Origin: Mesorhizobium ciceri WSM4083
GTDB taxonomy: Bacteria; Pseudomonadota; Alphaproteobacteria; Rhizobiales; Rhizobiaceae
Assembly: GCF_000519305.1 (NCBI RefSeq)
Contig: NZ_JAFG01000005.1
Location: 124,190 to 188,189 of the forward strand
Length of the DNA stretch: 64,000 nucleotides
Direction of reading: 5' to 3'
Shown here: positions 352 to 41,256 of the stretch, in pieces
Position numbering within the stretch: the first letter of the stretch is position 1
Layout: the number at the start of each line of letters is the position of its first letter
Program-made: the position numbers and the translations under genes
Notes under the pieces: generated by a model
Database searches by the model: none
What the model was told of the DNA's origin: nothing
What the model saw: the letters and a program-made list of their open reading frames with translations, nothing else

Positions 352-1014
352 ATGGTTGTCGGCACCCCCCACATCAGCCTTGCGGGATCGGGCGCGCTGC
401 TGCTCGATGGCGCGCAGGGCGCCTTTAATGATACCACCCAGGAACTGGTCTGGGCGGTAGCGAACGCCGCGTTGACCCTCGAAGGGGTGTGCGAGGCCGT
501 TCCCGGCATGAACAACCTGCTCATAGTATTCGACCCGCTCGCCACGGATGCACCAAGCCTCAGCGAGCAGCTGAAGTCACTATGGGCCAGCACAGACGCC
601 CACGCGGTTGCCGGCACGCATCATACCATTCCCGTTCACTATGGCGGCGCGCGTGGCGAGGATCTCGCCGGCTGGGCCACGCATTGCGGCCTGTCTGTCG
701 ACGAGACCGTCAGGCACCACGCGGCGGCCACCTATACCGTCGCCGCCATCGGCGCCATGCCGGGCTTTCCCTATCTGTCCGGTCTCGACCCGCGGCTTGC
801 CTGGGCAAGGCGCAGCACGCCTCGCCTCAAAGTCACTGAGGGCGCCGTCATCATTGCTGGCGCGCAGGCGGGTATCATGCCGATGACTGCGCCGTCCGGC
901 TGGCACATCATCGGCCATACCGACGTGAAGCTGTTCAAGGCCGAAGCGGAATTGCCCGTGCTGCTCAGGCCCGGAGACAAAATCCGATTCGCAATCGCAG
1001 GGATCGAGGCATGA
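352..1014 (+). CDS. pxpB: 5-oxoprolinase subunit PxpB / KipI-AHS1 family
   Basis: This 220-residue protein belongs to the allophanate hydrolase subunit 1 (AHS1, KipI, PxpB) family. The family signature GFPYLSGLDPRL and the later AGAQAGIMPMTAPSGWHIIG segment are both present, and the length is normal. In E. coli and B. subtilis PxpA, PxpB and PxpC together open 5-oxoproline to glutamate with ATP. The same fold forms half of the carboxyltransferase domain of urea carboxylase. It starts 6 bases after the SDR stop and its own stop overlaps pxpC by 4 bases (ATGA), so it is translationally coupled to its partner subunit. pxpA is in the facing minus-strand operon together with biotin carboxylase and BCCP genes. 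Confidence 0.9.
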   Translation: MVVGTPHISLAGSGALLLDGAQGAFNDTTQELVWAVANAALTLEGVCEAVPGMNNLLIVFDPLATDAPSLSEQLKSLWASTDAHAVAGTHHTIPVHYGGARGEDLAGWATHCGLSVDETVRHHAAATYTVAAIGAMPGFPYLSGLDPRLAWARRSTPRLKVTEGAVIIAGAQAGIMPMTAPSGWHIIGHTDVKLFKAEAELPVLLRPGDKIRFAIAGIEA

Positions 1015-1991
1015 TCGAGATCCTCACCACCGGCCTGCCGAACACGGTCCAGGATCTCGGCCGGCCTGGTCATCTGGCGCTGGGGGTCAGCCATGGCGGC
1101 GCCATGGACAGGCAGGCGCTGGCGATCGCCAATCTCATGCTGGGCAATGACCCCTCGGCTGCCGGGATCGAGGTCGCGCTTCATCCGTTCCGGCTGCGCG
1201 CGCACATCGACACCGCCGTCGCCGTCACCGGCGCGGAATGCGCCGTCAGCGTCGGCGATCGGCCCTGCCCGCCCTGGTGGGCCATGACGATCCGCGCCGG
1301 CGAGACCCTAGTCCTCGAAGCACCGCGGGTCGGTGCGCGTTCCTATATCGCCTTTGCCGGCGGGCTCGATCTGCCTTCCGTCATGGGGTCGCGCGCGACG
1401 GATGTGAAAGGTGGTTTCGGCGGGTTTGCTGGACGCGGCCTGTCGCGCGGCGACCGGCTTGCGCTCAACCCTGCGCAATGCCGGCTTCCCGCGGGCGGCA
1501 TCGGCGCAGCGCTGGAGGAGCGACGGGGCGCGGCGGACGGCGCGGCCTCGGCAATCGAATTGCGGGTTCTGCCGGCCGCCGAGTTCGACGCCTTCACGCC
1601 GGAGGCCCAGGCGGCTTTCACCGGCAGCGAATGGAGCATCACCAACGACGCCAACCGCATGGGATACCGCCTTTCCGGGGAGACGCTTTCCCTCCTCTCG
1701 CCGCTGGAATTGCTGTCCCACGGGATCGTACCGGGCACCGTCCAGGTGCCGCCGTCCGGCCAGCCGATCATCCAGCTGGCCGATGCCAACACCTGCGGCG
1801 GCTATCCGAAGATCGCTACGGTGATCGAAGCCGACCTCTGGCGGCTGGCGCAAGCGCCGGTCGGCGCGCGCCTGCGGTTCTCGCCGGTCTCGATAGAAGC
1901 GTCGACGGCAGCGCTTCGCGCGAACCGGCAGCAACGTCGCGACTTTATCGCCGCCCGAAACCTCATGGCCGGCGAGCAGAGGGCTCCATGA
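1011..1991 (+). CDS. pxpC: 5-oxoprolinase subunit PxpC / AHS2 carboxyltransferase family
   Basis: This 326-residue protein is of the allophanate hydrolase subunit 2 (KipA/PxpC, biotin-dependent carboxyltransferase-like) family. The typical start (TTGLPNTVQDLGRPG), the GVSHGGAMD motif and the C-terminal stretch PSGQPIIQLAD-TCGGYPKIATV are all present. It pairs with PxpB to form the catalytic core that activates a lactam or carboxylates it in urea carboxylase relatives. It overlaps pxpB by 4 bases upstream and the epoxide-hydrolase-like gene by 4 bases downstream, so all three are coupled. Whether this set acts on 5-oxoproline or another lactam cannot be told from sequence; see the finding about the split carboxylase. 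Confidence 0.9.
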   Translation: MIEILTTGLPNTVQDLGRPGHLALGVSHGGAMDRQALAIANLMLGNDPSAAGIEVALHPFRLRAHIDTAVAVTGAECAVSVGDRPCPPWWAMTIRAGETLVLEAPRVGARSYIAFAGGLDLPSVMGSRATDVKGGFGGFAGRGLSRGDRLALNPAQCRLPAGGIGAALEERRGAADGAASAIELRVLPAAEFDAFTPEAQAAFTGSEWSITNDANRMGYRLSGETLSLLSPLELLSHGIVPGTVQVPPSGQPIIQLADANTCGGYPKIATVIEADLWRLAQAPVGARLRFSPVSIEASTAALRANRQQRRDFIAARNLMAGEQRAP

Positions 1992-3151
1992 AAATTCGTC
2001 CCTTCACCATCGAGATTGCCCAGTCTGAAATCGACGATTTGAAGAAGCGCATCTCGACCTGGCGCGAGCCGGACCAGTTGCAGGCAATAGGCTGGGCGCA
2101 GGGAACGGAATACGAGGAACTGAGCCGGCTTATGCAGCACTGGCGTACCGGCTTCGACTGGCGCAAGCATGAAGCCGCCTGGAACATCCATCCGCACTAC
2201 CAGACGGATATCGGCGGCCAAACCATCCATTTCATCCATGCGCGCGCCGCTGTGGCGACCAACAGAACGGTCATACTCACCCATGGCTGGCCAGGCAGCG
2301 TCTTCGAATTTCATGAACTGATCCCGCTTCTGACAGACCCGCTTTCGCATGGCGGAAGGCAGGAAGATGCCTTCAACGTCGTGGCCCCGTCGATTCCCGG
2401 CTATGGCTTTTCGAGCCGGCCGACCAGGCCTGGTCTCAACCTGTTCACCGTCGCCGATCTTTGGGCCGAGTTGATGAGCCGTCTCGGCTACAAGCGATAT
2501 CTCGCTCAGGGAGGCGATCTCGGCGCCAGCGTGTCGACCTGCCTGGCGCACGCGCATCCAGACAGTCTCGCCGGCGTGCATCTGAATTTCATCCCCGGCT
2601 CATTCTCACCGCCTCACGATGCAAGCCCGGATGGCGATTTGACTTTGGAAGAGCGCATCTTCCTGGAACGGAAAGCCGGATGGGCGGATCTTCATGGCGC
2701 CTATGCCCATATTCAAGCGACGCGTCCGCAAACGCTTGCCTACGGGCTGACGGATTCGCCGGTCGGACTGGCGGCGTGGATGATCGAAAAATTCCGCGAC
2801 TGGAGCGATTGCGATGGCGATCTGGCCAACGCCGCTTTTTCGCGCGACGACATGCTCGCCAACATCTCGCTCTACTGGTTCACCCGGACCGTCGCTTCGT
2901 CGATGCGGCTCTATTGGGAAACGCGCGCCCGTCCGCTTGCATTCGCGCCCGGCACGGCGATCAACGTCCCGCTTGCAGTGGCTTTGTTTCCCAAGGAATT
3001 GCCGATGCCGCCAAGGAGTTGGGTCGAGCGCGTCTTCAAGGACATCCGCCAGTGGACAGCGATGCCGCGCGGTGGTCATTTCGCAGCCCTCGAGCAGCCC
3101 GCTTTGCTTGCACAGGATCTAAGAGCCTTTGCCGGTGGTCTGGATTTTTAA
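1988..3151 (+). CDS. epoxide hydrolase-like alpha/beta hydrolase (EHN family)
   Basis: This 387-residue protein has the epoxide hydrolase N-terminal (EHN) domain (about residues 1-110: IRPFTIEIAQSEIDDLKKRI..TWREPDQ) followed by an alpha/beta hydrolase fold. The oxyanion-hole HGWPGSVFEF and the nucleophile elbow with Asp (QGGDLGASVST) fit microsomal-type epoxide hydrolases; the late His lies in RGGHFAALEQP. The open frame runs further upstream, but the ATG at 1988 gives the conserved N-terminus and a 4-base overlap with pxpC. Proteins of this type hydrolyse epoxides, though some family members act on other substrates. It sits inside the pxpBC transcription unit, so a role in the same pathway is likely but unproven. 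Confidence 0.85.
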   Translation: MKIRPFTIEIAQSEIDDLKKRISTWREPDQLQAIGWAQGTEYEELSRLMQHWRTGFDWRKHEAAWNIHPHYQTDIGGQTIHFIHARAAVATNRTVILTHGWPGSVFEFHELIPLLTDPLSHGGRQEDAFNVVAPSIPGYGFSSRPTRPGLNLFTVADLWAELMSRLGYKRYLAQGGDLGASVSTCLAHAHPDSLAGVHLNFIPGSFSPPHDASPDGDLTLEERIFLERKAGWADLHGAYAHIQATRPQTLAYGLTDSPVGLAAWMIEKFRDWSDCDGDLANAAFSRDDMLANISLYWFTRTVASSMRLYWETRARPLAFAPGTAINVPLAVALFPKELPMPPRSWVERVFKDIRQWTAMPRGGHFAALEQPALLAQDLRAFAGGLDF

Positions 3152-3189
3152 AGGCAGCGTTTGCGCGCAGCCAAGCCCGAAGGCCAGAA

Positions 3190-4221
3190 ATGACCAACAC
3201 CACGATCACCACCGATGCCCTGCATGAGCGCGTCGATGCAATTTTCCGCAAGGCCGGACTGAACCCCATTCAGGCCAGCGCCATCACAAGGGTCATCGTC
3301 GCGGCGGAACGCGATGCCTGCAAGTCACATGGCATCTACCGGATCGAAGGCGCCCTGCGGACGATCAAGGCCGGAAAGGTGAGCCCATACGCGGTGCCCG
3401 AGTTATTGCCGCAAGACGCACCGGCCATCGTCAAAGTGGATGCGAAGCACGGCTTCGCCAACCCGGCCTTCGAACTTGGTCTGCCTGTCCTGGTCGAGCG
3501 GGCACGCTCGTGCGGCATTGCCGCGCTCGCGATCAACGATGCGGTGCATTTTTCCGCCCTTTGGGTGGAGGTCGAAGCCTTGACCCAGGCAGGCCTTGCC
3601 GGCTTGGCCATGTGCCCGAGCTATGCCACCGTCGCTCCGACCGGTGGCAACGGACCGTTGCTGGGCACCAATCCTTTTGCCTTTGGCTGGCCGCGAGAAG
3701 AGCAGCCTCCCTACGTTTTCGACTTCGCGACCTCGGTTGCCGCGCGCGGCGAGATCGAGCTCTACCGCCGGGCCGACAAGAAGCTGCCGGAAGGCTGGGC
3801 CATGGATTCGGACGGCAGGCCAACGACCGACCCCGAAGCTGCCCTGGCGGGCGCCATGCTTCCCTTCGGCGGGCACAAGGGCTCCGCCATCGCGACGATG
3901 ATCGAGCTGCTCGCCGGGATCATGATCGGCGACCTGACCAGCCCCGAGGCGCTCAATGTGCTCGGCACCACGACGCTCTATCCATCGCATGGAGAGTTGG
4001 TCATCGCTTTCTCCCCGAAAGCCTTCGCCGCCGGCCGGCCCGGCAATCCGCTGGGCCGTGCTGAAGCGCTGTTCGAGGGGATCCTTGGCCAGGGCGCGCG
4101 CCTACCCTCGCAAAGGCGGTTCCTAGCCCGCGAGACGTCGGAGCGCGACGGTATCGTTCTCTCACACCAGGAAATGGAACAACTCGATCGTTTTCTCGAA
4201 CGGGGGCTCGACGCGGTCTGA
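3190..4221 (+). CDS. Ldh family (malate/L-lactate/ureidoglycolate DH, DpkA-like) oxidoreductase
   Basis: This 343-residue protein belongs to the Ldh_2 family of NAD(P)H dehydrogenases. Visible signatures are RVIVAAERDACKSHG near residue 40, the segment NDAVHFSALW, the nucleotide-binding GNGPLLGTNPFAFGWP and the late LPFGGHKGSA. Besides malate and lactate dehydrogenases the family includes DpkA-type reductases that reduce delta1-pyrroline-2-carboxylate or piperideine-2-carboxylate. The next gene is a proline-racemase-family protein with the dehydratase-type Thr, whose known product is delta1-pyrroline-2-carboxylate, so the imine-reductase reading is attractive. The frame is open far upstream; the ATG at 3190 gives the normal family length. 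Confidence 0.85.
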   Translation: MTNTTITTDALHERVDAIFRKAGLNPIQASAITRVIVAAERDACKSHGIYRIEGALRTIKAGKVSPYAVPELLPQDAPAIVKVDAKHGFANPAFELGLPVLVERARSCGIAALAINDAVHFSALWVEVEALTQAGLAGLAMCPSYATVAPTGGNGPLLGTNPFAFGWPREEQPPYVFDFATSVAARGEIELYRRADKKLPEGWAMDSDGRPTTDPEAALAGAMLPFGGHKGSAIATMIELLAGIMIGDLTSPEALNVLGTTTLYPSHGELVIAFSPKAFAAGRPGNPLGRAEALFEGILGQGARLPSQRRFLARETSERDGIVLSHQEMEQLDRFLERGLDAV

Positions 4222-4263
4222 ATCGGTATCGCCAAGGCCAAGACCAAATACAGGAGGAAAAAA

Positions 4264-5289
4264 ATGCGCTGGACGAAAACATTCACGGTCGTCGGCTGCC
4301 ATGCCGAAGGCGAAGTCGGCAATGTGATCACGGGAGGCGTCAAGGATGTTCCGGGCAAGACCATGTTCGAAAAGAAGGAGTATCTCGAAGAGCATATGGA
4401 CGACATTCGTGGGCTGCTCTTATTCGAGCCGCGCGGTGCGCCCTACGTCAACGGCAACATCATCCTGCCGCCTTGCGATCCCTCGGCGGATCTCGGCTAC
4501 GTCATAATTGAAAGCACGGAATACCCGCCCATGTCGGGCTCCAACACCATCTGCGTCGCCACCGTGGCGCTGGAAACGGGCATGGTGCCGATGAAGGAGC
4601 CTGAGACATTGCTGCGCATGGAAGCGCCGGCCGGCATGATCGAGGTGCGCTGCCTCTGCGAGAACGGCAAGGTGAAGCAGGTGGAGTTCACCAATGTGCC
4701 GGCTTTCGCGTTCCACCTCGACATACCTGTCGAAGTCGAGGGGCTCGGCACGATCACCGTCGACACCTCCTATGGCGGCATGACTTTCGCCCATGTGAAC
4801 GCCCGGGCACTGGGCTTTTCCATAACACCCGACGAGGCCCACCAGATGTCGCTGATGGGTCAACGCATCAAGAAGGCGGTCAACGAGCAGCTCAATGTCG
4901 TGCATCCGGAGAACCCGAAGATCCGCGACGTGTCCAACGTGATTTTCGAAGGTCCTATCGAGCGCATCGACGGGCGCGTGGATAGCATCAACGGTACGGT
5001 GTGCCTGCATGGCAGGCTCGATCGCTCGCCGACCGGCACCGGCACCACCGGGCGGCTTGCGGTGATGTCGGCAAAGGGGCAGATCGCCAAGGGCGAGCTG
5101 TTCCGCAACAGGTCGATCATCGGGACCCATTTCGATTCCCGCGTGATCGCCAATGCGCGTGTTGGCGATCGCGACGCTGTCGTGGTCACCATCGCCGGAC
5201 AGGCCTGGATTACCAGCATCGGCCAATATGGTCTCGACCCGACAGATCCCTATCCGCGCGGACATCGCCTCAGCGATGTCTGGTTCTGA
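4264..5289 (+). CDS. proline racemase family protein with Ser/Thr in place of both cysteines
   Basis: This 341-residue protein is of the proline racemase / 4-hydroxyproline epimerase / trans-3-hydroxyproline dehydratase family. A clear Shine-Dalgarno (AGGAGG) precedes the ATG. In racemases two cysteines act as acid and base. Here the first site reads PPMSGSNT (Ser91) and the second DRSPTGTGT (Thr257), so both cysteines are absent. Thr at the second site is typical of trans-3-hydroxy-L-proline dehydratases, which normally keep Cys at the first. The GTHFDSRV segment is intact. It follows an Ldh-family reductase by 42 bases, consistent with a dehydratase-reductase pair, but the Ser/Thr pair makes the exact reaction uncertain. 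Confidence 0.85.
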   Translation: MRWTKTFTVVGCHAEGEVGNVITGGVKDVPGKTMFEKKEYLEEHMDDIRGLLLFEPRGAPYVNGNIILPPCDPSADLGYVIIESTEYPPMSGSNTICVATVALETGMVPMKEPETLLRMEAPAGMIEVRCLCENGKVKQVEFTNVPAFAFHLDIPVEVEGLGTITVDTSYGGMTFAHVNARALGFSITPDEAHQMSLMGQRIKKAVNEQLNVVHPENPKIRDVSNVIFEGPIERIDGRVDSINGTVCLHGRLDRSPTGTGTTGRLAVMSAKGQIAKGELFRNRSIIGTHFDSRVIANARVGDRDAVVVTIAGQAWITSIGQYGLDPTDPYPRGHRLSDVWF

Positions 5290-5306
5290 AACGGACCCGA
5301 CCGTGC

Positions 5307-6080
5307 TCAGGCCGCGAACGCTCTGACCCTGACGCCGCTCGCCTCCAGCCGTCGCCGGACGCGCGCGGCGATGGCGACGGCTGCCGGGGTGTCGCTGTGG
5401 ACGCAGATCGAATCGATCGGCGTCTGCAGCATCTGTCCGGAAAGCGTCTCGATGGCACCTTGCTTGACCATTCGCACGACCCGTTCGGCCGCCTTCTCGG
5501 CGTCGTGGATGACAGCGCCTTCCAGCTTGCGCGAGACAAGAAAGCCTTCCTCCGTATAGGCGCGGTCGGCAAAGATTTCGGATCTGACCGTCAGGCCCGC
5601 GTCGCGCGCGATCCTGTCCTGGAAGCCAAACGCTATGGCCAGGCAGATCAGGCCGGGATCGACGGCCTTGACCGCGCGCGTCACGGCTTCGGCGACGCCA
5701 CGGTCGGTCTGGGTAAGATTGCCTAGCGCGCCATGCGCCTTCACATAGCGGATCGGGTGGCCGGCATAGGCGGAAAGCGCTTGCGCCGCGCCGATCTGGT
5801 AGGCGACCAGCCTCTCGATCTCATCCATGGAATGCGGGATGATGCGGCGTCCGAATCCCCACAGATCGGCGAAGCTCGGATGCGCGCCAACGGCAACGCC
5901 CTTGTCGCGCGCCATCGAGAACGTGGCCGCCATGATCTCGGGGTCGCCGGCATGAAAGCCGCAGGCCACATTGGCGGAACTGACGATGTCGAGGATCGCC
6001 GCATCGTCGCCGAGCCTGTAGGCTCCAAAACCCTCGCCCATGTCGGAATTGATATCGACCTGCAATCCTTGGGCCGCCAT
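5307..6080 (-). CDS. pxpA: 5-oxoprolinase subunit PxpA (LamB/YcsF family)
   Basis: This 257-residue protein has the LamB/YcsF family start VDINSDMGEGFGAYRLGDD and the SSANVACGFHAGDP motif, with an HGALGNLT segment further on. PxpA is the third subunit of ATP-dependent 5-oxoprolinase. The frame extends upstream, but the ATG at 6080 is preceded by AGGAAA at good spacing and gives the conserved N-terminus. It is the last gene of a five-gene minus operon (aminotransferase, BCCP, biotin carboxylase, degenerate BCCP, pxpA) and ends 17 bases from the convergent proline-racemase gene. Being separated from pxpBC and placed next to biotin enzymes suggests a joint complex or pathway. Confidence 0.9.
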   Translation of the reverse strand: MAAQGLQVDINSDMGEGFGAYRLGDDAAILDIVSSANVACGFHAGDPEIMAATFSMARDKGVAVGAHPSFADLWGFGRRIIPHSMDEIERLVAYQIGAAQALSAYAGHPIRYVKAHGALGNLTQTDRGVAEAVTRAVKAVDPGLICLAIAFGFQDRIARDAGLTVRSEIFADRAYTEEGFLVSRKLEGAVIHDAEKAAERVVRMVKQGAIETLSGQMLQTPIDSICVHSDTPAAVAIAARVRRRLEASGVRVRAFAA

Positions 6081-6118
6081 GGCGCTTTCCTCAGTGGTTC
6101 GAACCATCGCCTTTGCCT

Positions 6119-6511
6119 TCACGCCAGCTCGTAGAGCGGCGTGCCGTAGCCGACGACCGCTCCGTCCTCGATCAGCGCAGCACCCAGCACGCCGTCTACC
6201 GGCGCGAGTACGGCCCTCAGGCATGGGCCGACCTGCAGGACGCCGACCGTCTCGCCCTTGCGAACCACCTGGCCAGGTCCGGCAATCGGCCGACCGGTCG
6301 TTGGATGATCTAGACAGAACACACCGACGCCGGGCGCACGCACGCCCTTGAAGACCGTTTCGGCCTTCGGCGCGACTGCAGCCATGGGTGTTTCGGCAAC
6401 AACCGCCCGCATATGCAGGCGCAACGAAAAGCCGGCCTCCGACACTTCGATCTCGCCGATGCCGGCGCTAGCGCACCAGGCGGCCAGCCTTTCGATCTCT
6501 TCAATCGTCAT
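6119..6511 (-). CDS. BCCP-like biotinyl/lipoyl-domain protein lacking the biotin lysine
   Basis: This 130-residue protein has the same layout as the BCCP at 7880-8335: a short N-terminal helix-strand region ([30 protein letters not shown]) and a C-terminal biotinyl/lipoyl fold (about residues 56-130: [36 protein letters not shown]). At the hairpin where EAMKM should be, residues 92-98 read LQVGPCL, so no lysine is available for biotin. The ATG at 6511 has GAGG 5 bases before it and overlaps the biotin carboxylase gene by 11 bases. A structural or docking role in the carboxylase complex is inference; a non-functional remnant is possible, but the frame is intact and coupled. Confidence 0.75.
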
Positions 6512-7874
6512 CGCCGCCTCGTCCCTGGAGCAGACCGCCTTCAATGAGACGTTCAAGATGATGGATATCGAAGCCGCCGGCAGCGAAGCCGGGCTCCTCC
6601 ATCAGGAGGCCATGGAGCGGCGCGTTGGTGGCGATGCCGACAGCCTCCATCTCGCCCAGCGCGCCGCTCATGCGCCGGATCGCCTCGGCCCGCGTCGCGC
6701 CATGCGCCAGCAGCTTGGCCACCAGGGAATCGTAGTGCGGCGGCACGATGTAGCCGGAGTAGAGATGCGATTCGACGCGGATTCCCGGGCCGCCGGGCGG
6801 CGTCCAGCGCTCGACCCGGCCCGGATGCGGGCGAAAGCTATATGGATCTTCAGCGTTGATGCGGCATTCGATGGCGTGGCCCTGGATGCGGATGTCTTGC
6901 TGGCTGAACGACAGGGCTTCGCCCCGGGCGATGCGGATCTGCTCGCGCACGATATCGATGCCGGTGACGAGTTCAGTGACGGGATGCTCCACCTGCACGC
7001 GGGTGTTCATCTCGATGAAAGAGAAGCGCCCATCCTCGTAGAGGAATTCGAATGTGCCGGCACCGGTATAGCCGATGGTCAGGCATGCGCGGGCACACAG
7101 TTCGCCGATCTCGGCAATCGCCTCGCGGGCGATGCCGGGCGCCGGCGCCTCCTCGATGATCTTCTGGTGGCGGCGCTGCATGGAGCAATCCCGCTCGCCT
7201 AACCACACCGCCTTGCCATGCTTGTCCGCCAGAATCTGAATCTCGATATGGCGCGGGTGCTCAAGGAATTTCTCCAGATAGACTTGCGGGTTGCCGAAGG
7301 CCCGGTCCGCCTCTTTCGTCGCCATGGAAACGGCTTCCATTAGGGCGCGCTCCTCGCGCACGATGCGCATGCCGCGCCCGCCGCCGCCGCCCGCCGCCTT
7401 GACGATGACCGGATAGCCGATGGCCTCGGCAATGGCGCGCACTGCCTGCTCGTCCTGCGGCAGCGCCCCCTCCGAGCCTGCAACGCAGGGAACGCCGGCG
7501 GCGATCATCATGCGCTTGGCGGAGACCTTGTCGCCCATGGTGCGGATCGCCGCCGCGGACGGCCCGATGAAGGCAAGGCCGGCGTTTTCGACGGCCTCGG
7601 CGAAGGCCGCATTTTCCGAGAGGAACCCATAGCCCGGATGGATCGCGCCCGCGCCGGTAAGTTGCGCGGCGGTGATGATCTCGGCGATGTTGAGATAGCT
7701 CTCCGTCGCGGCAGCCGGCCCGATGCAGATCGCCCTGTCCGCCAGCGCGACATGGCGAAGGCTCGCATCAGCATCCGAGTACGCTGCCACCGTTTTCAAT
7801 CCGAGATCGCGGCAGGCGCGCAGGATGCGCAGCGCGATTTCACCGCGGTTGGCGATAAGGACGGTATCGAACAT
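6501..7874 (-). CDS. biotin carboxylase (AccC family)
   Basis: This 457-residue protein is a full-length biotin carboxylase: N-terminal pre-ATP-grasp domain ([16 protein letters not shown]), ATP-grasp Gly loop [11 protein letters not shown] near residue 160, the [12 protein letters not shown] motif and the [14 protein letters not shown] catalytic segment, followed by the C-terminal domain ECRINAEDP. It carboxylates biotin on a BCCP using ATP and bicarbonate. It lies 5 bases after the lysine-bearing BCCP and overlaps the degenerate BCCP, with pxpA next. No acetyl-CoA carboxyltransferase (accA/accD) is nearby, so the carboxyl acceptor is probably not acetyl-CoA; PxpB/PxpC-type subunits are the candidate transferase. 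It is probably a paralogue of the housekeeping AccC. Confidence 0.92.
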
Positions 7875-7879
7875 CGCCC

Positions 7880-8335
7880 TCAGCCCAAATCTTCGAGAAC
7901 GAACAGCACGTCGCCGGACTGCACGGCGGCATGGTCGTCGAAAGCGATCTGGACGATCCGCCCGGGGCGATCGGATTCCACGACGTTGAACGTCTTCATG
8001 GCTTCGAGGACGCCGACCTTCTGCCCTTCCATGACCGCATCGCCAACCGAAGCGAGCGGCGGTTCGCCTTCGGTGCCGGAACGGTAGAACACGCCGGTGA
8101 GCGGCGCGCGGATCGAATGCCGCGCGATGGGCGGAGCTGTCAAAGCCGGATTTGAGGAGACGGCGATGCCGGCGGCTGGCCCCGGCTGCGGCGAAGGCTG
8201 CGTCTGCGACGCGGATTGGGCCGGAGCCGCCTGCCTGGACATGCGGATGCGAACGCCGTCGCGCTCGATCTCCAGTTCGGCAATGGGCGAACGCGAGACA
8301 AATTCGATCAGCTTCTGGACGAAGTCGAGATCCAT
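7880..8335 (-). CDS. biotin carboxyl carrier protein (AccB-like)
   Basis: This 151-residue protein is a BCCP: N-terminal segment [13 protein letters not shown], a Pro/Ala/Gln-rich linker at about residues 35-70, and a C-terminal biotinyl domain ([25 protein letters not shown]). Lys114 in EAMKT is the expected biotin site; the residue after it is Thr rather than the common Met, as in several non-acetyl-CoA BCCPs. It is placed 5 bases before the biotin carboxylase start and 7 bases after the aminotransferase stop, in one tight operon. It would carry the carboxyl group to the PxpB/PxpC-like transferase if the split carboxylase model is right. Confidence 0.92.
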
Positions 8336-8342
8336 CGCCGGC

Positions 8343-9545
8343 CTATCGCAGCGCTTCGACAGCCTCGGCGATACGCCCGATCGCTTTTTCGATCAGGTCC
8401 ATCGACGTGGCTATGGAAATGCGGAAGTGCGGCGACAGGCCGTAGGCTGAGCCCTGCACCACCGCGACCCGTGCCTGATCGAGCAGGTAAAGCGAGAAAT
8501 CGTCGTCGCTGCCGATAGGAGTGCCGTCCGGGCGACGACGGCCGATCAGGGCCGAGCAATTGGGATAGAGATAGAAGGCGCCCTCGGGCGTCTGGCAGGT
8601 GAGGCTAGGAATCTTGCGCAGCAGCTCCAGTGCGCGGTCGCGCCGCGCCTGGAATTCGAGTGCCCGCGGACGAAGAAAGTCCTGAGGGCCTTCAAGTGCT
8701 GCTATGGTCGCGGCTTGCGAGATGGATGACGGGTTCGACGTGCTTTGGCTCTGCACGGTCGCCATGGCGCGGATCAACTCTTCCGGCCCGCCGGCATAGC
8801 CGATCCGCCAGCCGGTCATGGCATAGGCCTTCGACACACCATTGACCGTCAGCGTGCGGCCCTTCAGCCGCGGCTCGACGCCTGCAATGGTATGGAACGC
8901 GCGCCCGTCGAACAGGATATGCTCGTAGATGTCATCGGTCAGCACGTGGACATGCGGGTGATCGAGCAACACCTCGGCCAGCCCCGCAAGTTCGTCGCGG
9001 CTGTAGACGGCGCCAGTCGGATTGGAGGGCGTGTTGAGCAGCAGCCATTTGGTGCGCCAGGTAATGGCTGCTCGCAGGGCTTGCGGCGTCAATTTGAAGC
9101 CCTCTGCCTCCGTGCAGGGAACGACCACCGGCTTGCCTTCGCCGAGCAGGACGATGTCGGTGTAGGAAACCCAATAGGGCGCTGGGACAACCACCTCGTC
9201 GCCGGGAGCCAGCGTTGCCAGCAGGGCGTTGTAGATGATCTGCTTGGCGCCGCCCGCAACACTGATTTGCGAAGGCTCATAGTCGAGGCCGTTCTCGCGC
9301 CTGAATTTTCCGGCCACCGCCTTCTTCAGCGCGGCGGTGCCGTCGACCGCCGTATAGCGCGTCTCACCCCTGCGCATCGCCTCGTAGGCCGCCTCGACGA
9401 TGTGCGGTGGCGTTGGAAAATCCGGCTCGCCGGCGCTCAGGCTGATGACGTCGATGCCGGCCGAACGCATTTCGATCGCCCGCGCGGTGACCGCCATGCT
9501 GGGGCTCGGCTTGATGACGTCGAGACGGGGAGCGATGAGGCCCAC
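8343..9545 (-). CDS. class I/II PLP aminotransferase (aspartate aminotransferase-like)
   Basis: This 400-residue protein is a fold-type I aminotransferase of the AspC/AspB (Igamma) group. The GEPDFPTPPHI signature is near residue 40, the NTPSNPTGAVY segment binds the cofactor and substrate, and the PLP lysine lies in NGVSKAYAMTGWRIGY. The start is a GTG with GAGGA 6 bases upstream. It is the first gene of the minus operon leading to BCCP, AccC, BCCP-like and PxpA, and faces a divergent FAD oxidoreductase gene across 203 bases. A close paralogue lies at 42869-44071 next to hyuAB. The amino donor is unknown. Confidence 0.9.
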   Translation of the reverse strand: MGLIAPRLDVIKPSPSMAVTARAIEMRSAGIDVISLSAGEPDFPTPPHIVEAAYEAMRRGETRYTAVDGTAALKKAVAGKFRRENGLDYEPSQISVAGGAKQIIYNALLATLAPGDEVVVPAPYWVSYTDIVLLGEGKPVVVPCTEAEGFKLTPQALRAAITWRTKWLLLNTPSNPTGAVYSRDELAGLAEVLLDHPHVHVLTDDIYEHILFDGRAFHTIAGVEPRLKGRTLTVNGVSKAYAMTGWRIGYAGGPEELIRAMATVQSQSTSNPSSISQAATIAALEGPQDFLRPRALEFQARRDRALELLRKIPSLTCQTPEGAFYLYPNCSALIGRRRPDGTPIGSDDDFSLYLLDQARVAVVQGSAYGLSPHFRISIATSMDLIEKAIGRIAEAVEALR

Positions 9546-9748: not shown

Positions 9749-10927
9749 ATGGGCACAAACTATGATGTGGTGATCGTCGGCGGTGGCGTTGTCGGCAGCT
9801 CGATCGCCTACTTTCTGTCAGCCAATCCGGATTTCGATGGCAGGATCGCGGTGATCGAGCGGGACCCCTACTACACGGCGTCCTCGTCTTCCTTGTCGAC
9901 CAGCGCCATCCGCCAGCAGTTCGGCACGGCGCCCAACATTGCCATGTCGAAGTTTAGCATCCACTTCCTGCGCCAGGTAAAGACGCGGCTTGCCATCGGC
10001 GACGAGTTGGCCGACATCGGCCTGCATGAGCCCGGCTACCTCGTGCTGGCGACACCCGAGCGGGCAGACGCGCAGCGTGCCAAGAACCGCGTTCAGCGCG
10101 GCATGGGCGTCGACGCCGAACTGATCGAGCAGGTCGATCTGGCACGACGCTTCCCGTGGCTCAACACGGACGATCTCGCCCTTGGCTCGCTCGGCCTTGG
10201 CAGCGAAGGCTGGTTCGACGGCCCCGGCCTGATGCAGGCCTTCCGTCGAAAGGCGCGCACGCAGGGCGTGAACTATCTTGCCGCGACGGTGACCGGACTG
10301 ACCATGGCGTCTCCCCAAAAGGTCGGCGAAGTGGTGCTCGACAATGGCGACCGGCTTGCCGCCGGCACGGTGATCAACGCGGCCGGACCATGGAGCGCGG
10401 GCATTGCCAGGATGGCCGGCGCCGAGCTGCCGGTTGTCCCGAGCAAGCGCTGCGTCTTCGTCTTCGAAACGCCGGCAAGGATCGAAAACTGCCCCTTCGT
10501 CTTCGACACGAGCGGCTTCTGGCTGCGGCCGGAAGGTCAGCTCTTCCTGTGCGGTATTCCGCCGGTGCGCGACAACGATCCAGACGATTTTGGCCTGGAT
10601 GTGGACTACGACCTGTTCGACGACTTGATCTGGCCGGCGCTCGCCCATCGTGTGCCCGGGTTTGAGCAATTGCGGATGCTGCGCGCCTGGGCGGGGCTCT
10701 ACGAGTACAACACCTTCGACCACAGCGGCATCATCGGCCGGCATCCCGAGATCTCGAATTTTGTCCTGGCCACCGGCTTCAGCGGCCACGGCATGATGCA
10801 TGCAGCGGCGACCGGGTCGGGCGTCAGTGATCTCATTGCCTATGGCGAGTACCGCTCTGTCGACCTGTCGGCCTTCCGCTATGAAAGGATCGCTGGCAAT
10901 CAGCCTATCGAGGAACATGTCTACTGA
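9749..10927 (+). CDS. FAD-dependent oxidoreductase (DAO family, FOXRED1-like)
   Basis: This 392-residue protein is of the D-amino acid oxidase/sarcosine oxidase superfamily. The Rossmann motif VVIVGGGVVGSSIAYFL is at the N-terminus, then SSLSTSAIRQQFG (the segment around the flavin in this subfamily), and the C-terminal FAD motif near ATGFSGHGMMHA. The ATG at 9749 gives a normal N-terminus; an in-frame ATG at 9662 would add 29 unconserved residues. Such enzymes oxidise secondary or primary amino acids to imines, releasing H2O2 or reducing an acceptor. A paralogue lies at 23065-24282. It precedes a GntR regulator and faces the aminotransferase operon. Confidence 0.87.
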   Translation: MGTNYDVVIVGGGVVGSSIAYFLSANPDFDGRIAVIERDPYYTASSSSLSTSAIRQQFGTAPNIAMSKFSIHFLRQVKTRLAIGDELADIGLHEPGYLVLATPERADAQRAKNRVQRGMGVDAELIEQVDLARRFPWLNTDDLALGSLGLGSEGWFDGPGLMQAFRRKARTQGVNYLAATVTGLTMASPQKVGEVVLDNGDRLAAGTVINAAGPWSAGIARMAGAELPVVPSKRCVFVFETPARIENCPFVFDTSGFWLRPEGQLFLCGIPPVRDNDPDDFGLDVDYDLFDDLIWPALAHRVPGFEQLRMLRAWAGLYEYNTFDHSGIIGRHPEISNFVLATGFSGHGMMHAAATGSGVSDLIAYGEYRSVDLSAFRYERIAGNQPIEEHVY

Positions 10928-23064: not shown

Positions 23065-24282
23065 TTAGATCACTGCTTCCTCGAGAAACGGCTCGTTGCG
23101 CTCTATGCGCTCGTAACAGAACGGCGAAAGATCGAGCGTCTGGAAAGCCCCGTGAACGATAAGTTCTGAAACGGCCCGGCCCACGGCTGGCGACTGTTGC
23201 AGCCCGTGCCCCGAGAAGCCGTTGGCAAACATGAAATTGGTCACCTGCGGGTGGAAGCCGACGATGCCGTTGTGGTCGAGCATGTTGTACTCGTAGTGGC
23301 CGGTCCAACTGGTCTGGACCTTGAGTGCGTCGAAAGACGGAATGCGGTGCCAGAGTGCCGGCCAGATGTAGTCGTCGAACTCTTCATGGTGCATTTCAAA
23401 GTCGTCGTAGCCGGCCGGTCCGTCGCCTTGCGGCGTGTTGCCGGTGAGAAAAAGCTCGCCTTCGGGACGCACGAATGTTCCGGAAAGGTCGATGACATTG
23501 GGCATCCGGCCGGGGATCGGGTTGGCGCTGGCGAAGACGAAGCTGTAGCGCTTGTAGGGCGCGACCGGAATCGACAGGCCGGCCATGGCGGCCACCTGCT
23601 GCGCGCGCGGGCCCGCGGCGTTGACCAATGTTCCGCAGGCAACCGTCTGTCCGGTCGCGAGGCGCACCGAGACGACCCGCCCATCGGCGATGTCCAGCCC
23701 TGTCACGGCATTGTCGATATACTCGACGCCGCTGGCGCGGGCGGCGCGGCGGAAACCGTTCATCAGCCCCACGGAATCGAACCAGCCCTCTTCCCTAGCC
23801 CCCCAGGAACCGCCACCAAGATCCTCCACATTGAGCCAGGGGAAGCGATCCTTCAGCAGGCCCGGCTCAAGGAACACCGTGTGGGCCCCAAAACTGCGCT
23901 GCAGGTCGACGCGCTCGCGGGCCGCTTCGACGCCGTCGGGTGAACAGCAGTAGAGATATCCATGCTCCTTGAAGCCGAGGTCGGGTGCCGGTTCGTCCTT
24001 GTAGAAAGGTGCCATGCGCTCCTGGAATCCATGGATGATCTCGATGCCGAACTGGCTGATCTTCACATTGATCGGATTGGAATATTGCTGCCGGATCGCA
24101 CTGGTGGAGAGCGCCGTCGACGAGAATTCGTAGCTCGAGTCGCGTTCGACCACGAGGATCGAGGCGCCGCTGCCCAGCGCCTGGCTCAGCCAGTAGGCCG
24201 TGGACGAGCCGACAACCGCACCGCCGACGATGACGATGTCGTAGGCGTTGCGCGATGGCGCTTTGTACGGGGGGATCGGCAT
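23065..24282 (-). CDS. FAD-dependent oxidoreductase (DAO family, FOXRED1-like), paralogue 2
   Basis: This 405-residue protein is a second member of the DAO family: IVIVGGAVVGSSTAYWL at the N-terminus, SSTALSTSAIRQQY, WFDSVGLMNGFRRAA in the middle and FANGFSGHGLQQSPAVG at the C-terminal FAD site. It shares these blocks with the enzyme at 9749-10927. It follows the HpaI-type aldolase gene by 15 bases in a two-gene minus operon and is convergent with the MmgE/PrpD gene. It probably oxidises an amino or hydroxy acid; the presence of ridA in the divergent operon fits an imine-releasing oxidase. Confidence 0.88.
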   Translation of the reverse strand: MPIPPYKAPSRNAYDIVIVGGAVVGSSTAYWLSQALGSGASILVVERDSSYEFSSTALSTSAIRQQYSNPINVKISQFGIEIIHGFQERMAPFYKDEPAPDLGFKEHGYLYCCSPDGVEAARERVDLQRSFGAHTVFLEPGLLKDRFPWLNVEDLGGGSWGAREEGWFDSVGLMNGFRRAARASGVEYIDNAVTGLDIADGRVVSVRLATGQTVACGTLVNAAGPRAQQVAAMAGLSIPVAPYKRYSFVFASANPIPGRMPNVIDLSGTFVRPEGELFLTGNTPQGDGPAGYDDFEMHHEEFDDYIWPALWHRIPSFDALKVQTSWTGHYEYNMLDHNGIVGFHPQVTNFMFANGFSGHGLQQSPAVGRAVSELIVHGAFQTLDLSPFCYERIERNEPFLEEAVI

Positions 24283-37492: not shown

Positions 37493-39163
37493 ATGATCCG
37501 CAATGGCGGTCGCCTTCTTGTCGAGTGCCTGATCGCGCTCGGCGCGACCAAGAGTTTCGGTGTGCCGGGCGAAAGCTACCTGGCCGTGCTGGACGCGCTG
37601 CACGACACTCATGGAAAGCTGGACTACGTGCTGTGTCGCAATGAAGGCGGTGCGGCATTCATGGCCTCGGCCTACGGCAAGCTGACGGGCTCGCCGGGCA
37701 TCTGCTTCGTGACGCGTGGCCCGGGCGTAACCAATGCGTCCATCGGGGTGCACACCGCGATGCAAGACAGTTCGCCGATGATCCTGTTCGTTGGCCAGGT
37801 CGGCACCGACATGCGCGGCCGCGAAGCGTTCCAGGAGATCGACTACCGGGCGGTGTTCGGCACGATGGCGAAATGGGCCGTGGAAATCGACGATGTCGAG
37901 CGCCTCCCGGAAATCATTGCCCGGGCCTGGACCACGGCGCTGACCGGGCGGCCCGGCCCCGTGGTGATCGCCCTGCCCGAGGACATGCTGACGACGCTGA
38001 CCGATGTCGCTGCACTCAGCGGACCGGCCAGGCTGTTCGAGGCCGCGGCCGATGCCGACGCGCTGGCCGAGGCCCAATCCATGCTTGCCGCCGCCCGCAG
38101 GCCGGTCGTCCTGATCGGCGGCGCCAACTGGTCCGCTGACGGGCGCGCCGCGCTCCAGGCTTTCGCCGAAACCTCCGACATTCCGGTGGTCGCGGCGTTC
38201 CGTTTCCAGGATCAGTTCGACAATGGTTCGCCGGTCTTCGTCGGCGAGGCCGGTGTCGGCATGGTCCCGCATGTCAAGACGCTGATCCGCGACGCCGATG
38301 TGATTCTGGCGATCAATGTGCGCTTTGGCGAGATGACCACGGATGGCTACACGCTGCTGTCCGTGCCCGAGCCGAAGCAGAAGCTGATCCATGTGCACGG
38401 TTCGGATCGCGAGATCGGCAAGATCTACGTGCCCTCGCTTGGCATCCATGCCGGGCCGAACGCCTTCGCCAAGGCGCTCTCGCCGGTCAAGGGCGACTGG
38501 GCCGCGTGGCGGTCGCAGGCGCGCCAAAGCTATGAGGGCACGTTCATCGCTCCGGCCCAGCCGGGCCCGGTCGACATGGTCGAGGTCAGCCGCTGGCTGC
38601 GCGAGAACCTACCCACCGACGTCATCCTCACCAATGGCGCCGGCAATTTCACCGTGTGGCCAAACAAGTTCTTCAAGTTCGGACCGAAGGCACGGCTGCT
38701 GGCGCCGCAATCCGGCGCCATGGGCTACGGCCTGCCGGCGGCCATCGCGGCCAAGGTGGCCTTTCCCGACCGCACGGTGGTCTGTTTTGCCGGCGACGGC
38801 GATTTCCAGATGAACTGCCAGGAGTTGGGGACGGCGATGCAGGCCGGAGCGCAGCCGATCGTCCTGATCCTGAACAATGGCATCTACGGCACCATCCGCG
38901 CCCATCAGGAGCGGCACTATCCGGCGCGCGTATCGGGAACCAACATCGAGAACCCGGATTTCGTCGGCATCGCCCGGGCCTATGGCTTCCATGCCGAGCG
39001 AGTCGGCGCGACCGGCGATTTCGCCGGTGCTTTCGGCAGGGCGCTGGCGTCCGCGACCGGCGCGGTCCTGGAGCTGGATATTTCCCCGGAGGCGATCACG
39101 CCGCGTCAGACCCTTTCCCAAATGCGCGACGCAGCGCTCGCTTCGCAGAAGGCCAACGCATGA
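37493..39163 (+). CDS. ThDP-dependent enzyme, acetolactate synthase/benzoylformate decarboxylase-like
   Basis: This 556-residue enzyme has the three domains of the POX/IlvB family: PYR with the activating Glu in CRNEGGAAFMASAYG (near residue 50), a central TPP_enzyme_M domain, and PP with FAGDGDFQMNCQELGTAMQAG and LNNGIYGTIRAHQ. It is probably a 2-oxoacid decarboxylase, carboligase or oxidase; no FAD or regulatory subunit clue allows a choice. Its stop overlaps hyuA by 4 bases, so it is tightly coupled to the hydantoinase/oxoprolinase pair. Confidence 0.87.
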   Translation: MIRNGGRLLVECLIALGATKSFGVPGESYLAVLDALHDTHGKLDYVLCRNEGGAAFMASAYGKLTGSPGICFVTRGPGVTNASIGVHTAMQDSSPMILFVGQVGTDMRGREAFQEIDYRAVFGTMAKWAVEIDDVERLPEIIARAWTTALTGRPGPVVIALPEDMLTTLTDVAALSGPARLFEAAADADALAEAQSMLAAARRPVVLIGGANWSADGRAALQAFAETSDIPVVAAFRFQDQFDNGSPVFVGEAGVGMVPHVKTLIRDADVILAINVRFGEMTTDGYTLLSVPEPKQKLIHVHGSDREIGKIYVPSLGIHAGPNAFAKALSPVKGDWAAWRSQARQSYEGTFIAPAQPGPVDMVEVSRWLRENLPTDVILTNGAGNFTVWPNKFFKFGPKARLLAPQSGAMGYGLPAAIAAKVAFPDRTVVCFAGDGDFQMNCQELGTAMQAGAQPIVLILNNGIYGTIRAHQERHYPARVSGTNIENPDFVGIARAYGFHAERVGATGDFAGAFGRALASATGAVLELDISPEAITPRQTLSQMRDAALASQKANA

Positions 39164-41256
39164 CCAGTACGGCAAATGACATCCGTCTCGGCGCGGATAT
39201 CGGCGGCACATTCACCGATATCGTGGTCGATGTGCGCGGCATGATCTTTTCGACCAAGATCCTGACCAACTATGCCGCCCCCGAACAGGCCATCCTCGAC
39301 GGCATCGAGATCGTCGTGCGCGACGCCGGCATCACACTGGCGGACCTCGACATCGTCATCCACGGCACCACGCTGGCGACCAACGCGCTCATCGAACGGC
39401 GTGGCGCCAAGACGGCGCTGGTCACCACCGAAGGGTTTCGCGATGTCATCGAGATGCGCACGGAAAACCGGTTCGAACAGTATGATCTGAACCTGAAACT
39501 GCCGCCGCCGCTGATCCCGCGCGAACATCGCTATACGGTCAAGGGGCGCATCGGCGCGGACGGACGGGAATTGCAGCCGCTGGACGAAGCGGCGCTCGAC
39601 GAGATCGCCGACAGCATCGCCGCCGGCGGCTTCGGCGCCGTCGCCATCGGCTTCATCCATTCCTATATGGACCCGGTGCATGAGCGGCGGGCGCGCGAAA
39701 TCCTCGCCAGAAAGCTCGACATACCGATTTCCATCAGCGCCGAGGTCTCGCCGCAGATGCGCGAGTTCGAACGCTTCAACACGGTTTGCGCCAATGCCTA
39801 TGTCCGGCCGCAGATGGCCGACTATCTGGTGCGCCTCCAGGTGCGGCTGAAGGAGATGGGGGCGAACTGCCCAGTGTTCATGATCCACTCGGGCGGCGGC
39901 CTGATCTCGGTGGAAACCGCGTCCGAATTTCCGGTGCGCCTGGTCGAGTCCGGACCTGCCGGCGGCGCCATCTTCGCGGCCGACGTGGCGCGGCGCTTCG
40001 ATCTGGACTCCGTCGTCTCCTACGACATGGGCGGGACGACCGCGAAGATCTGCCTGATCGAGGACTATTCGCCGCGCACGGCGCGGACCTTCGAGGTCGC
40101 CCGCACCTATCGCTTCTGCAAGGGCTCCGGCATGCCGATCTCGATCCCCGTCATCGAGATGATCGAGATCGGCGCCGGCGGCGGCTCGATCGCCTGGGTC
40201 GACGCCATGGGACGCATCCAGACCGGCCCGGAAAGTGCCGGGTCCGAACCCGGTCCCGCCTGCTACGGGCGCGGCGGCAGCCGCCCGGCCATCACCGATG
40301 CCGACCTGGTGCTGGGCAAACTCGATCCCGACAATTTCGCCGGCGGCGCCATCAGACTCGACACCCAGGCTTCCGAGCAGGCAATCACCCGTGATGTCGG
40401 CACCCGGCTTTCGCTCAATTCCGTTTCCGCCGCTTTCGGCATCTGCGAGGTCGTCGACGAGAACATGGCCAATGCCGCCCGCGTGCACGCGGTGGAAAAC
40501 GGCAAGAACATCTCCGACAATGTCATGATCGCCTTTGGCGGCGCCGCGCCCCTGCACGCGGCACGGCTGTGCGAAAAACTTGGCGTAGAACAGTGCCTTG
40601 TTCCGCAAGGCGCCGGCGTCGGTTCGGCCATCGGCTTCCTCAAGGCGCCGTTCGGCTACGAGGCGCTGGCTTCCAAATTGATGCGGCTGTCGCGTTTCGA
40701 TGCATGCGAGGTGAATGCGCTGCTCGACGGGCTGAAGACGACCGCCGAGAGCTTCGTGCGGGCCGGCACCGACGGTGCCATCACCCGCGAGATCACCGCC
40801 TTCATGCGCTATGCCGGCCAGGGTTGGGAAATCCCGGTGCCGCTGCCCGACAGGGCGTTCAAGCCCGGCGACGATGTGAGCCTCAAGGACGCTTTCCGGG
40901 ACAATTACGCGCGCTTCTTCGGCCGTGCCATTGATGGCCTTGACGGGTTGGAAATCGAAATCGTCACCTGGTCGGTCAAAGCGCAAGACGTGCGACCGGC
41001 CCCCGCCAGGCACGCTATCACCATGGGGACACGACCCGTTGCTGCTTCGCAGACGCGCGGGGTTTTCGACCCGACGACCGGAACGGTGCAGATTTCGGCT
41101 ATCATCGAACGCGCCGACCTCTCGCCGGGGGATCGCATCAGTGGTCCGGCGGTGATCGTCGAGCGTGAGACGTCGACGGTCGTCACCACTCTCTTCGATG
41201 CCGTGCTGCAGAGCGACGGTTCGATCCTCCTGATCCGCAAAGGGGTCCAGGCATGA
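39160..41256 (+). CDS. hyuA: hydantoinase/oxoprolinase family protein, A subunit
   Basis: This 698-residue protein is the HyuA-type subunit: N-terminal actin-like ATP-binding fold (LGADIGGTFTDIVV), VIHGTTLATNALIERRGA, and SYDMGGTTAKICLIED in the second phosphate-binding region, then AFGGAAPLHAARLCEKLG. Together with HyuB it forms ATP-dependent N-methylhydantoinase, 5-oxoprolinase or acetone/acetophenone carboxylase-type complexes. The ATG at 39160 overlaps the ThDP enzyme stop (ATGA) although the frame is open far upstream. The substrate is unknown. Confidence 0.9.
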   Translation: MTSTANDIRLGADIGGTFTDIVVDVRGMIFSTKILTNYAAPEQAILDGIEIVVRDAGITLADLDIVIHGTTLATNALIERRGAKTALVTTEGFRDVIEMRTENRFEQYDLNLKLPPPLIPREHRYTVKGRIGADGRELQPLDEAALDEIADSIAAGGFGAVAIGFIHSYMDPVHERRAREILARKLDIPISISAEVSPQMREFERFNTVCANAYVRPQMADYLVRLQVRLKEMGANCPVFMIHSGGGLISVETASEFPVRLVESGPAGGAIFAADVARRFDLDSVVSYDMGGTTAKICLIEDYSPRTARTFEVARTYRFCKGSGMPISIPVIEMIEIGAGGGSIAWVDAMGRIQTGPESAGSEPGPACYGRGGSRPAITDADLVLGKLDPDNFAGGAIRLDTQASEQAITRDVGTRLSLNSVSAAFGICEVVDENMANAARVHAVENGKNISDNVMIAFGGAAPLHAARLCEKLGVEQCLVPQGAGVGSAIGFLKAPFGYEALASKLMRLSRFDACEVNALLDGLKTTAESFVRAGTDGAITREITAFMRYAGQGWEIPVPLPDRAFKPGDDVSLKDAFRDNYARFFGRAIDGLDGLEIEIVTWSVKAQDVRPAPARHAITMGTRPVAASQTRGVFDPTTGTVQISAIIERADLSPGDRISGPAVIVERETSTVVTTLFDAVLQSDGSILLIRKGVQA

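Follow-up and report, generated by a model that had tools for sequence, protein, structure and literature searches.

Genes of the locus

We analyzed a 64,000-nucleotide stretch of the 6.85 Mb genome of Mesorhizobium ciceri WSM4083 (G000:C24:124190-188189; hereafter, the window), focusing on six genes that combine a biotin carboxylase (BC) and two biotin carboxyl carrier proteins (BCCPs) with the 5-oxoprolinase-type proteins PxpA, PxpB, and PxpC. On the plus strand, PxpB (CT_C_D/AHS1; 352-1014; E 1.7e-62) exceeds the TIGR00370 cut-off (174.6 versus 145.55 bits) and is followed by PxpC (CT_A_B/AHS2; 1011-1991; E 1.4e-91), whose relatives carry the NCBI name "biotin-dependent carboxyltransferase family protein." This PxpC is 94% identical to the PxpC on plasmid pMESCI01 of M. 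ciceri WSM1271, and it scores 296 bits on the curated PxpC equivalog NF045499, below that model's 500 bits. The minus strand encodes PxpA (LamB/YcsF; 5307-6080; E 6.2e-92), a putative ring-opening hydrolase; the biotin carboxylase AccC (6501-7874; TIGR00514, 687 bits versus a cut-off of 626.5); and BCCP1, which has the biotinyl Lys in LEAMKTF (7880-8335; TIGR00531, 96.7 bits, E 1.8e-27, under the cut-off of 115.2). These five genes had been named in an earlier reading of the window made from the letters alone (the sequence-only reading), and each is indeed an open frame that matches its family. That reading held that all parts of a split, urea-carboxylase-like lactam enzyme were present in the five, which overlooked a sixth gene, a second BCCP without the biotinyl Lys (BCCP2; 6119-6511, minus strand). 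BCCP2 is under the cut-off of both TIGR00531 (E 2e-9) and Biotin_lipoyl (20.1 bits).

The genes lie in two operons that face each other, as the sequence-only reading described. The plus-strand operon runs PxpB, PxpC, an epoxide-hydrolase-family protein, an Ldh_2 oxidoreductase, and a proline-racemase-family protein, and the minus-strand operon runs aminotransferase, BCCP1, AccC, BCCP2, PxpA. The absence of accA and accD also held, with no PF03255 or PF01039 match on contig C24. Elsewhere in the genome, a separate accB-accC pair at C1:231-233 kb has the top TIGR00514 score, accA is on C40, and the PF03255/PF01039 search found further carboxyltransferase (CT) matches on C1, C8, and C13. The window AccC and BCCP1 resemble the AccBC of bacterial acetyl-CoA carboxylase, but they are additional to the housekeeping pair and have no AccA/AccD on their contig. 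A second pxp-accBC set (type B, defined below) lies at C13:650-654 kb; as this set and the window account for the genome's only PF02626 matches, there is no plain PxpBC. At this second locus (L061, C13:645000-663000), the BCCP is short, PxpB has a Lys like that of urea carboxylase, and a further PxpA gene is nearby on the other strand.

A carrier paralogue without the biotinyl lysine

The BCCP2 gene lies between those for PxpA and AccC, shares 11 bases with the 3' end of accC, and has a product of 130 amino acids. BCCP2 aligns along its length with E. coli AccB, N-terminal helix and strand included, and its Q-V-G-P stands opposite E-A-M-K122 of AccB, with Pro replacing the biotinyl Lys. Judging from this alignment, BCCP2 cannot bear biotin at the usual site. 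The structure that best matches its AlphaFold model (mean pLDDT 90.6) is 1bdo, the biotinyl domain of E. coli, with TM-scores of 0.85 (target length) and 0.54 (query length).

BCCP2 is under purifying selection. Relative to the window, dN/dS was 0.23-0.42 for BCCP2 (six Mesorhizobium loci) and 0.20-0.33 for BCCP1 (six loci); seven loci were compared, of which L108 gave no BCCP2 value, and a BCCP1 value of 0.74 from L106 was dropped as a mismatched pair at a contig-cut locus. As the BCCP2 range is similar to that of BCCP1, we reject a decaying pseudogene.

The same pairing of carriers, a BCCP with the Lys beside one without it, is found at all six of the annotated plasmid loci. In NCBI, the names of the Lys-less protein vary: biotin attachment protein, biotin/lipoyl-containing protein (two loci), acetyl-CoA carboxylase BCCP subunit (two loci), and hypothetical protein. 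Among 76 alignable Lys-less BCCPs, none has Lys at the biotin site and Pro is the most frequent residue there (29 sequences), although the count of zero is partly circular, as the group was defined by having no [AVS][ML]K near the C terminus. The group is not a mere artefact of this lysine rule, because a single locus holds one BCCP with the Lys and one without. In a tree with few columns and long branches, one branch (SH-aLRT support 92) has the Lys-less BCCPs to one side. Of the 32 top-ranked profile matches in 150 genomes of the phylum, 30 had loci: 26 carry the Lys (25 assigned by the lysine rule and one, L221, by reading) and four do not. These four are all at PxpBC loci (the window, L059, L048, and L074), and are themselves members of the profile alignment.

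Lys-less BCCP relatives are also known from plants. According to the accessible part of PMC11926652, the BADC proteins of heteromeric acetyl-CoA carboxylase are related to BCCP, lack the biotin motif, and are reported to aid BC-BCCP assembly. The anatomy is the same: both BADC and BCCP2 are BCCP relatives that lack the biotinylation motif and stand beside BC and BCCP. BCCP2 is thus BADC-like in the sense of a BCCP paralogue without the biotin Lys that is conserved beside BC and BCCP, but it is bacterial, is encoded in an operon, and has PxpBC rather than AccA/AccD as its presumed CT.

Recurrence, fusions, and subunit residues

Based on 20 regions picked around BCCP2 matches and paired BCCPs in 151 genomes of the same family, the carriers travel with PxpABC: 19 regions include PxpA, PxpB, PxpC, a Lys BCCP, and a Lys-less BCCP, with AccC in 14 of those 19. 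We then annotated, with the profiles from these regions, 80 named loci picked by PxpC (the best 80 of 531 relatives, biased to the window's PxpC type). All six genes are present in 58 of the 80, counting L174, where PxpA is ~8 kb off. Three loci miss PxpA only, the contig-cut L106 misses the Lys BCCP only, and L175 has just PxpABC and the Lys-less BCCP, with PxpB in two frames. The Lys-less BCCP itself is present in 77 loci (L184 included) and absent from L149, L155, and L183, the last two of which are cut near PxpC. Eight different gene arrangements of the six-gene set were found, and hosts of the named loci include Mesorhizobium, Rhizobium, Sinorhizobium, Acetobacter, Gluconobacter, Paraburkholderia, Cupriavidus, Variovorax, and Pseudomonas. 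Over 57 loci, the distances of the six proteins covary (r 0.67-0.93, versus ≤0.14 in permutations), with organism kinship still included in these values. Altogether, the six genes form a genuine and conserved system whose names in the records mislead.

To place the window among PxpC loci in general, we used PF02626 matches in 150 genomes drawn evenly from the phylum, which numbered 62 in 45 genomes. Nineteen are in frames of urea carboxylase size, and the three of these that we read all include BC and BCCP. From the remaining 43, we read 42, fetching ~18 kb per locus and leaving out one contig-end fragment. These were classified as plain PxpBC without accC or BCCP in the ~18 kb (type A), PxpBC with AccC and a short BCCP (type B, four loci), PxpBC with AccC-BCCP (type C, six loci), the window's type (type D, three loci), and a distant relative with a Lys-less BCCP (type E, one locus, L074). 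Dedicated biotin carboxylase genes accompany 14 of the 42 non-fused PxpC loci, or 12 of 40 without the window genome's own two. The sequence-only reading had made its case depend partly on whether AccC/BCCP and pxpBC co-occur in other genomes, and they do, both among the named loci and in the even draw.

The type C loci take the association further into gene fusions. PxpB-PxpC form one open frame at five of six loci (L076, L077, L078, L084, and L089), AccC-BCCP do so at five of six, and at four loci both fusions are present and adjacent. A fused BC-BCCP is also described for an acetyl-CoA carboxylase in the accessible part of PMC11077971. Phylogenetic analysis of PxpC by a quick method placed types D (support 94), C, and B and urea carboxylase each in one group; the linkage to biotin carboxylase needs four changes on this tree, so it arose or was lost repeatedly. 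The AccC sequences of types D and E form one clade, which adjoins the two housekeeping AccC sampled in the tree.

There is also a structural relative. PDB 9yx5 (released 2025-11-26) is, according to its entry, the M. smegmatis long chain acyl-CoA carboxylase complex with MSMEG_0435-MSMEG_0436 bound, and it contains AHS1 and AHS2 chains (V and W) homologous to PxpB/PxpC, plus the BC-BCCP subunit AccA3. The binding of a PxpBC-type pair to a BC-BCCP complex thus has a physical precedent. In 9yx5, BC and BCCP share a single chain that belongs to an acyl-CoA carboxylase; in the window they are separate proteins. The Lys-less carrier is without such a structural precedent, and is the new part. Structure searches with PxpA and BCCP2 did not have 9yx5 among the matches listed.

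The window AccC is identical to E. coli AccC at 271 of 449 aligned residues, including all 13 of the E. coli BC positions checked. PxpB and PxpA differ from their plain counterparts at motif positions. The window PxpB has GAMPGF, with Ala for the Phe of GFxPGF. This Phe is kept in 29/29 type A, 6/6 type C, and 4/5 type B sequences (one B was unmatched by the pattern), and is replaced by Ala or Ser in 21/21 type D sequences and 75/79 named loci. The window PxpA has KAHGALGN for KPHGALYN and HSD for HGD. The Tyr of KPHGALYN is kept in 18/25 type A, 5/5 type B, and 6/6 type C sequences, and is replaced by Gly or Ala in 21/21 type D sequences and 72/75 named loci. With one aromatic side chain gone from PxpB and another from PxpA, the substrate may be larger, and is probably bulkier than 5-oxoproline. 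At E. coli PxpA position 219, Gly is found in 25/25 plain and 6/6 type C sequences, and Ser in 5/5 type B and 18/21 type D.

Candidate enzyme, alternatives, and genomic neighborhood

The reading that we favor, and consider somewhat more probable than its negation, is that the products of the six genes work as a single lactam-opening enzyme, biotin-dependent and driven by ATP, with BCCP2 as a structural subunit. AccC would carboxylate biotin on BCCP1 using ATP and bicarbonate; BCCP1 would dock on PxpB-PxpC, and the carboxyl group would be passed to the lactam (N- or O-carboxylation), a step that would replace the direct phosphorylation by ATP reported for plain PxpBC; PxpA would then hydrolyze the activated ring, with loss of CO2. 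BCCP2 would either fill a BCCP position on AccC or bridge AccC/BCCP1 to PxpBC, as proposed for plant BADC. Finally, the ring-opened amino acid would be transaminated and split by an aldolase. In favor of this reading are the recurrence of the set in shuffled gene orders, the retention of both BCCPs where only AccC is missing, 9yx5, the type C fusions, the covarying distances, the AccC clade with its conserved positions, the branch, fold, and purifying selection of the Lys-less BCCPs, the separate housekeeping genes, and the BADC precedent. Biotin dependence of the system is likely. Gene content, recurrence, the conserved AccC active site, and the lost Lys of BCCP2 are observed directly, and a complex of PxpBC homologs with BC-BCCP has been solved in another species; the complex of the window proteins, the carboxyl transfer, and the substrate are what we infer. 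More tentatively, and with slightly less than even confidence, we propose a widespread proteobacterial class in which carboxybiotin replaces ATP phosphorylation for activating the lactam, built on a 5-oxoprolinase-type PxpABC independently of urea carboxylase, with a constant BADC-type structural subunit and a substituted pyroglutamate-like substrate.

Several observations weigh against this enzyme. E. coli PxpABC (pxpBCA), an ATP-dependent 5-oxoprolinase whose three proteins are homologous to those of the window, is not known to need biotin; sets of the window's type add AccC and two BCCPs to it, and have Ala or Ser for the PxpB Phe and Gly or Ala for the PxpA Tyr. PxpABC is described as ATP-dependent in the accessible part of PMC13274462. 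In the PxpC tree, the sister group of type D contains E. coli PxpC, L069, and L074, and urea carboxylase lies far away. The general base of the K. lactis urea carboxylase CT is K1605, per the available text of PMC5770610; we located it by counting in the K. lactis sequence, and the aligned column, which is near an alignment gap, is Arg in 29/29 type A, 6/6 type C, 21/21 type D, and 1/1 type E sequences and Lys in 5/5 type B sequences and 3/3 urea carboxylases. Judged by this residue, the mechanism of type B may be nearer to that of urea carboxylase, and type D would use another base or other chemistry. The E. coli PxpC Q250 column, the one PxpC position to follow the linkage to biotin carboxylase, was tried as a mark of biotin-free enzymes: it is Q in 27/29 type A sequences, V in type B, P in type C, N/A in type D, and P in urea carboxylase, but also Q in 1/21 type D sequences and in type E, and we dropped it given these exceptions and a nonsignificant independent-pairs test.

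The surveys and 9yx5 contribute further points of this kind. Plain type A loci (28/42) are commoner than linked ones, and 14 of the 80 named loci have everything except AccC, with both BCCPs kept. These AccC-less loci (L111-L115, L119, L120, L151, L154, L162, L167, L171, L177, and L179) suggest sharing of the housekeeping biotin carboxylase, and the retention of BCCP2 without a local AccC suggests that BCCP2 belongs with BCCP1 and PxpBC. The PxpB-type chain of 9yx5 has, by eye, type C rather than type D motifs, and the partner of AHS1-AHS2 in that entry is a long-chain acyl-CoA carboxylase. In the literature, with subscription papers mostly out of reach, we found no experiment on PxpABC with AccC/BCCP or on a bacterial Lys-less BCCP.

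What stands of the sequence-only reading, then, is the association of AccC/BCCP with pxpBC, which recurs in many genomes and has a counterpart in the 9yx5 complex; a literal split urea carboxylase is not supported, given the PxpC tree and the Arg at the base position. The window set shares the BC, CT (AHS2+AHS1), and BCCP domain families with K. lactis urea carboxylase (3va7/5i8i), but as separate proteins, with a CT distant in the tree, Arg for the general base Lys, PxpA in place of allophanate hydrolase, and an extra Lys-less BCCP.

An alternative that we consider unlikely is that the locus encodes two successive enzymes, a biotin-free PxpABC lactamase with its own ATP step, and AccC/BCCP1/BCCP2 carboxylating elsewhere in the same pathway. 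The grouping of type D with E. coli PxpC agrees with this, as does an Arg shared with plain PxpB where urea carboxylase has its base. However, it would leave AccC/BCCP without a nearby acceptor enzyme, since the contig has no PF03255/PF01039 carboxyltransferase, and it sits poorly with a gene set that stays together through rearrangement, with type C fusions that adjoin each other, and with PxpBC homologs bound to BC-BCCP in the 9yx5 entry.

We think it distinctly improbable that BCCP2 acts as a dominant-negative regulator, competing with BCCP1 for AccC, a role otherwise compatible with the lactam-opening enzyme. BCCP2 has kept an AccB-like N-terminal region and biotinyl fold, and inhibition is the older model for BADC; still, PMC11926652, in its accessible part, argues against inhibition for BADC, and BCCP2 occurs one for one with BCCP1 in the clusters, even without AccC, which fits a subunit better. 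Finally, that AccC/BCCP1 is an extra acetyl-CoA carboxylase half raising malonyl-CoA, unrelated to PxpABC, is very hard to credit: AccC passes TIGR00514 and adjoins housekeeping AccC in the tree, but the genome has its own accB-accC and accA elsewhere, accA/accD are missing from contig C24, and the linkage to pxpABC is persistent.

Public records name the parts as acetyl-CoA carboxylase and 5-oxoprolinase subunits, beneath which a distinct enzyme is likely hidden. If the lactam-opening enzyme is biotin-dependent, it shows how a single protein scaffold can exchange ATP for carboxybiotin, and it would provide a model from bacteria in which to examine what BADC-like, Lys-less BCCP subunits do, a matter in dispute. 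The system also points toward a lactam consumed by rhizobia and other bacteria from soil and plants. An unstudied split CT gene pair was remarked on in 2011 (PMC3199775, section 8, as available). In Lactiplantibacillus pentosus, an extra BC+BCCP copy and pxpB+pxpC are both species features; the accessible part of PMC12427679 treats them as separate functions and mentions no Lys-less BCCP. The available portions of PMC8453981, PMC11001197, PMC10061817, and PMC13390462 contain nothing on accBC.

Neighboring genes give some indication of the substrate. The minus-strand operon includes a pyridoxal phosphate (PLP) aminotransferase (8343-9545; PRK06107-like, under that model's cut-off), a recurrent neighbor and putative next step. 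Immediately upstream in the same genome are an SDR that extends into the window, an RraA-family aldolase, and a Peripla_BP_6 periplasmic binding protein. An aminotransferase is nearby at 13 of 21 loci (L039-L057, L059, and L074), 24/80 named loci, and 0/28 type A loci, and an RraA-family aldolase at 10 of the 21, 24/80, and 2/28, respectively. On the annotated plasmids, an SDR and an amino-acid ABC transporter often accompany the six-gene set. The aminotransferase, RraA aldolase, and amino-acid transporter suggest a substituted or hydroxylated pyroglutamate, with a route from lactam to ring-opened amino acid, transamination, and retro-aldol cleavage. This route is only a lead because most named loci have neither neighbor within ~9 kb (53/80, with both in 21/80).

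The rest of the plus-strand operon consists of the epoxide-hydrolase-family protein (1988-3151), the Ldh_2 family oxidoreductase (3190-4221), and the proline-racemase-family protein (4264-5289), whose best NCBIfam match is T3LHyp dehydratase, under cut-off. A trans-3-hydroxyproline route was rejected as the system's purpose, as only a subset of the loci have proline-racemase and Ldh_2 genes close by; we found no paper that pairs this route with 5-oxoprolinase. The proline-racemase-family protein has Ser in MSGSNT and Thr in SPTGTGT, positions that are usually Cys, and it may be an unusual dehydratase or epimerase. The window also has a second, unrelated lactam- or hydantoin-opening module at 39118-44071 (plus strand), where HyuA/HyuB-type hydantoinase/oxoprolinase genes precede a second aminotransferase, which shares its Pfam family with the one at 8343-9545. 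Two FAD-dependent oxidoreductases that are similar by eye lie in the same catabolic region, at 9749-10927 (plus strand) and 23065-24282 (minus strand), and the product of the former matches DAO in a domain scan.

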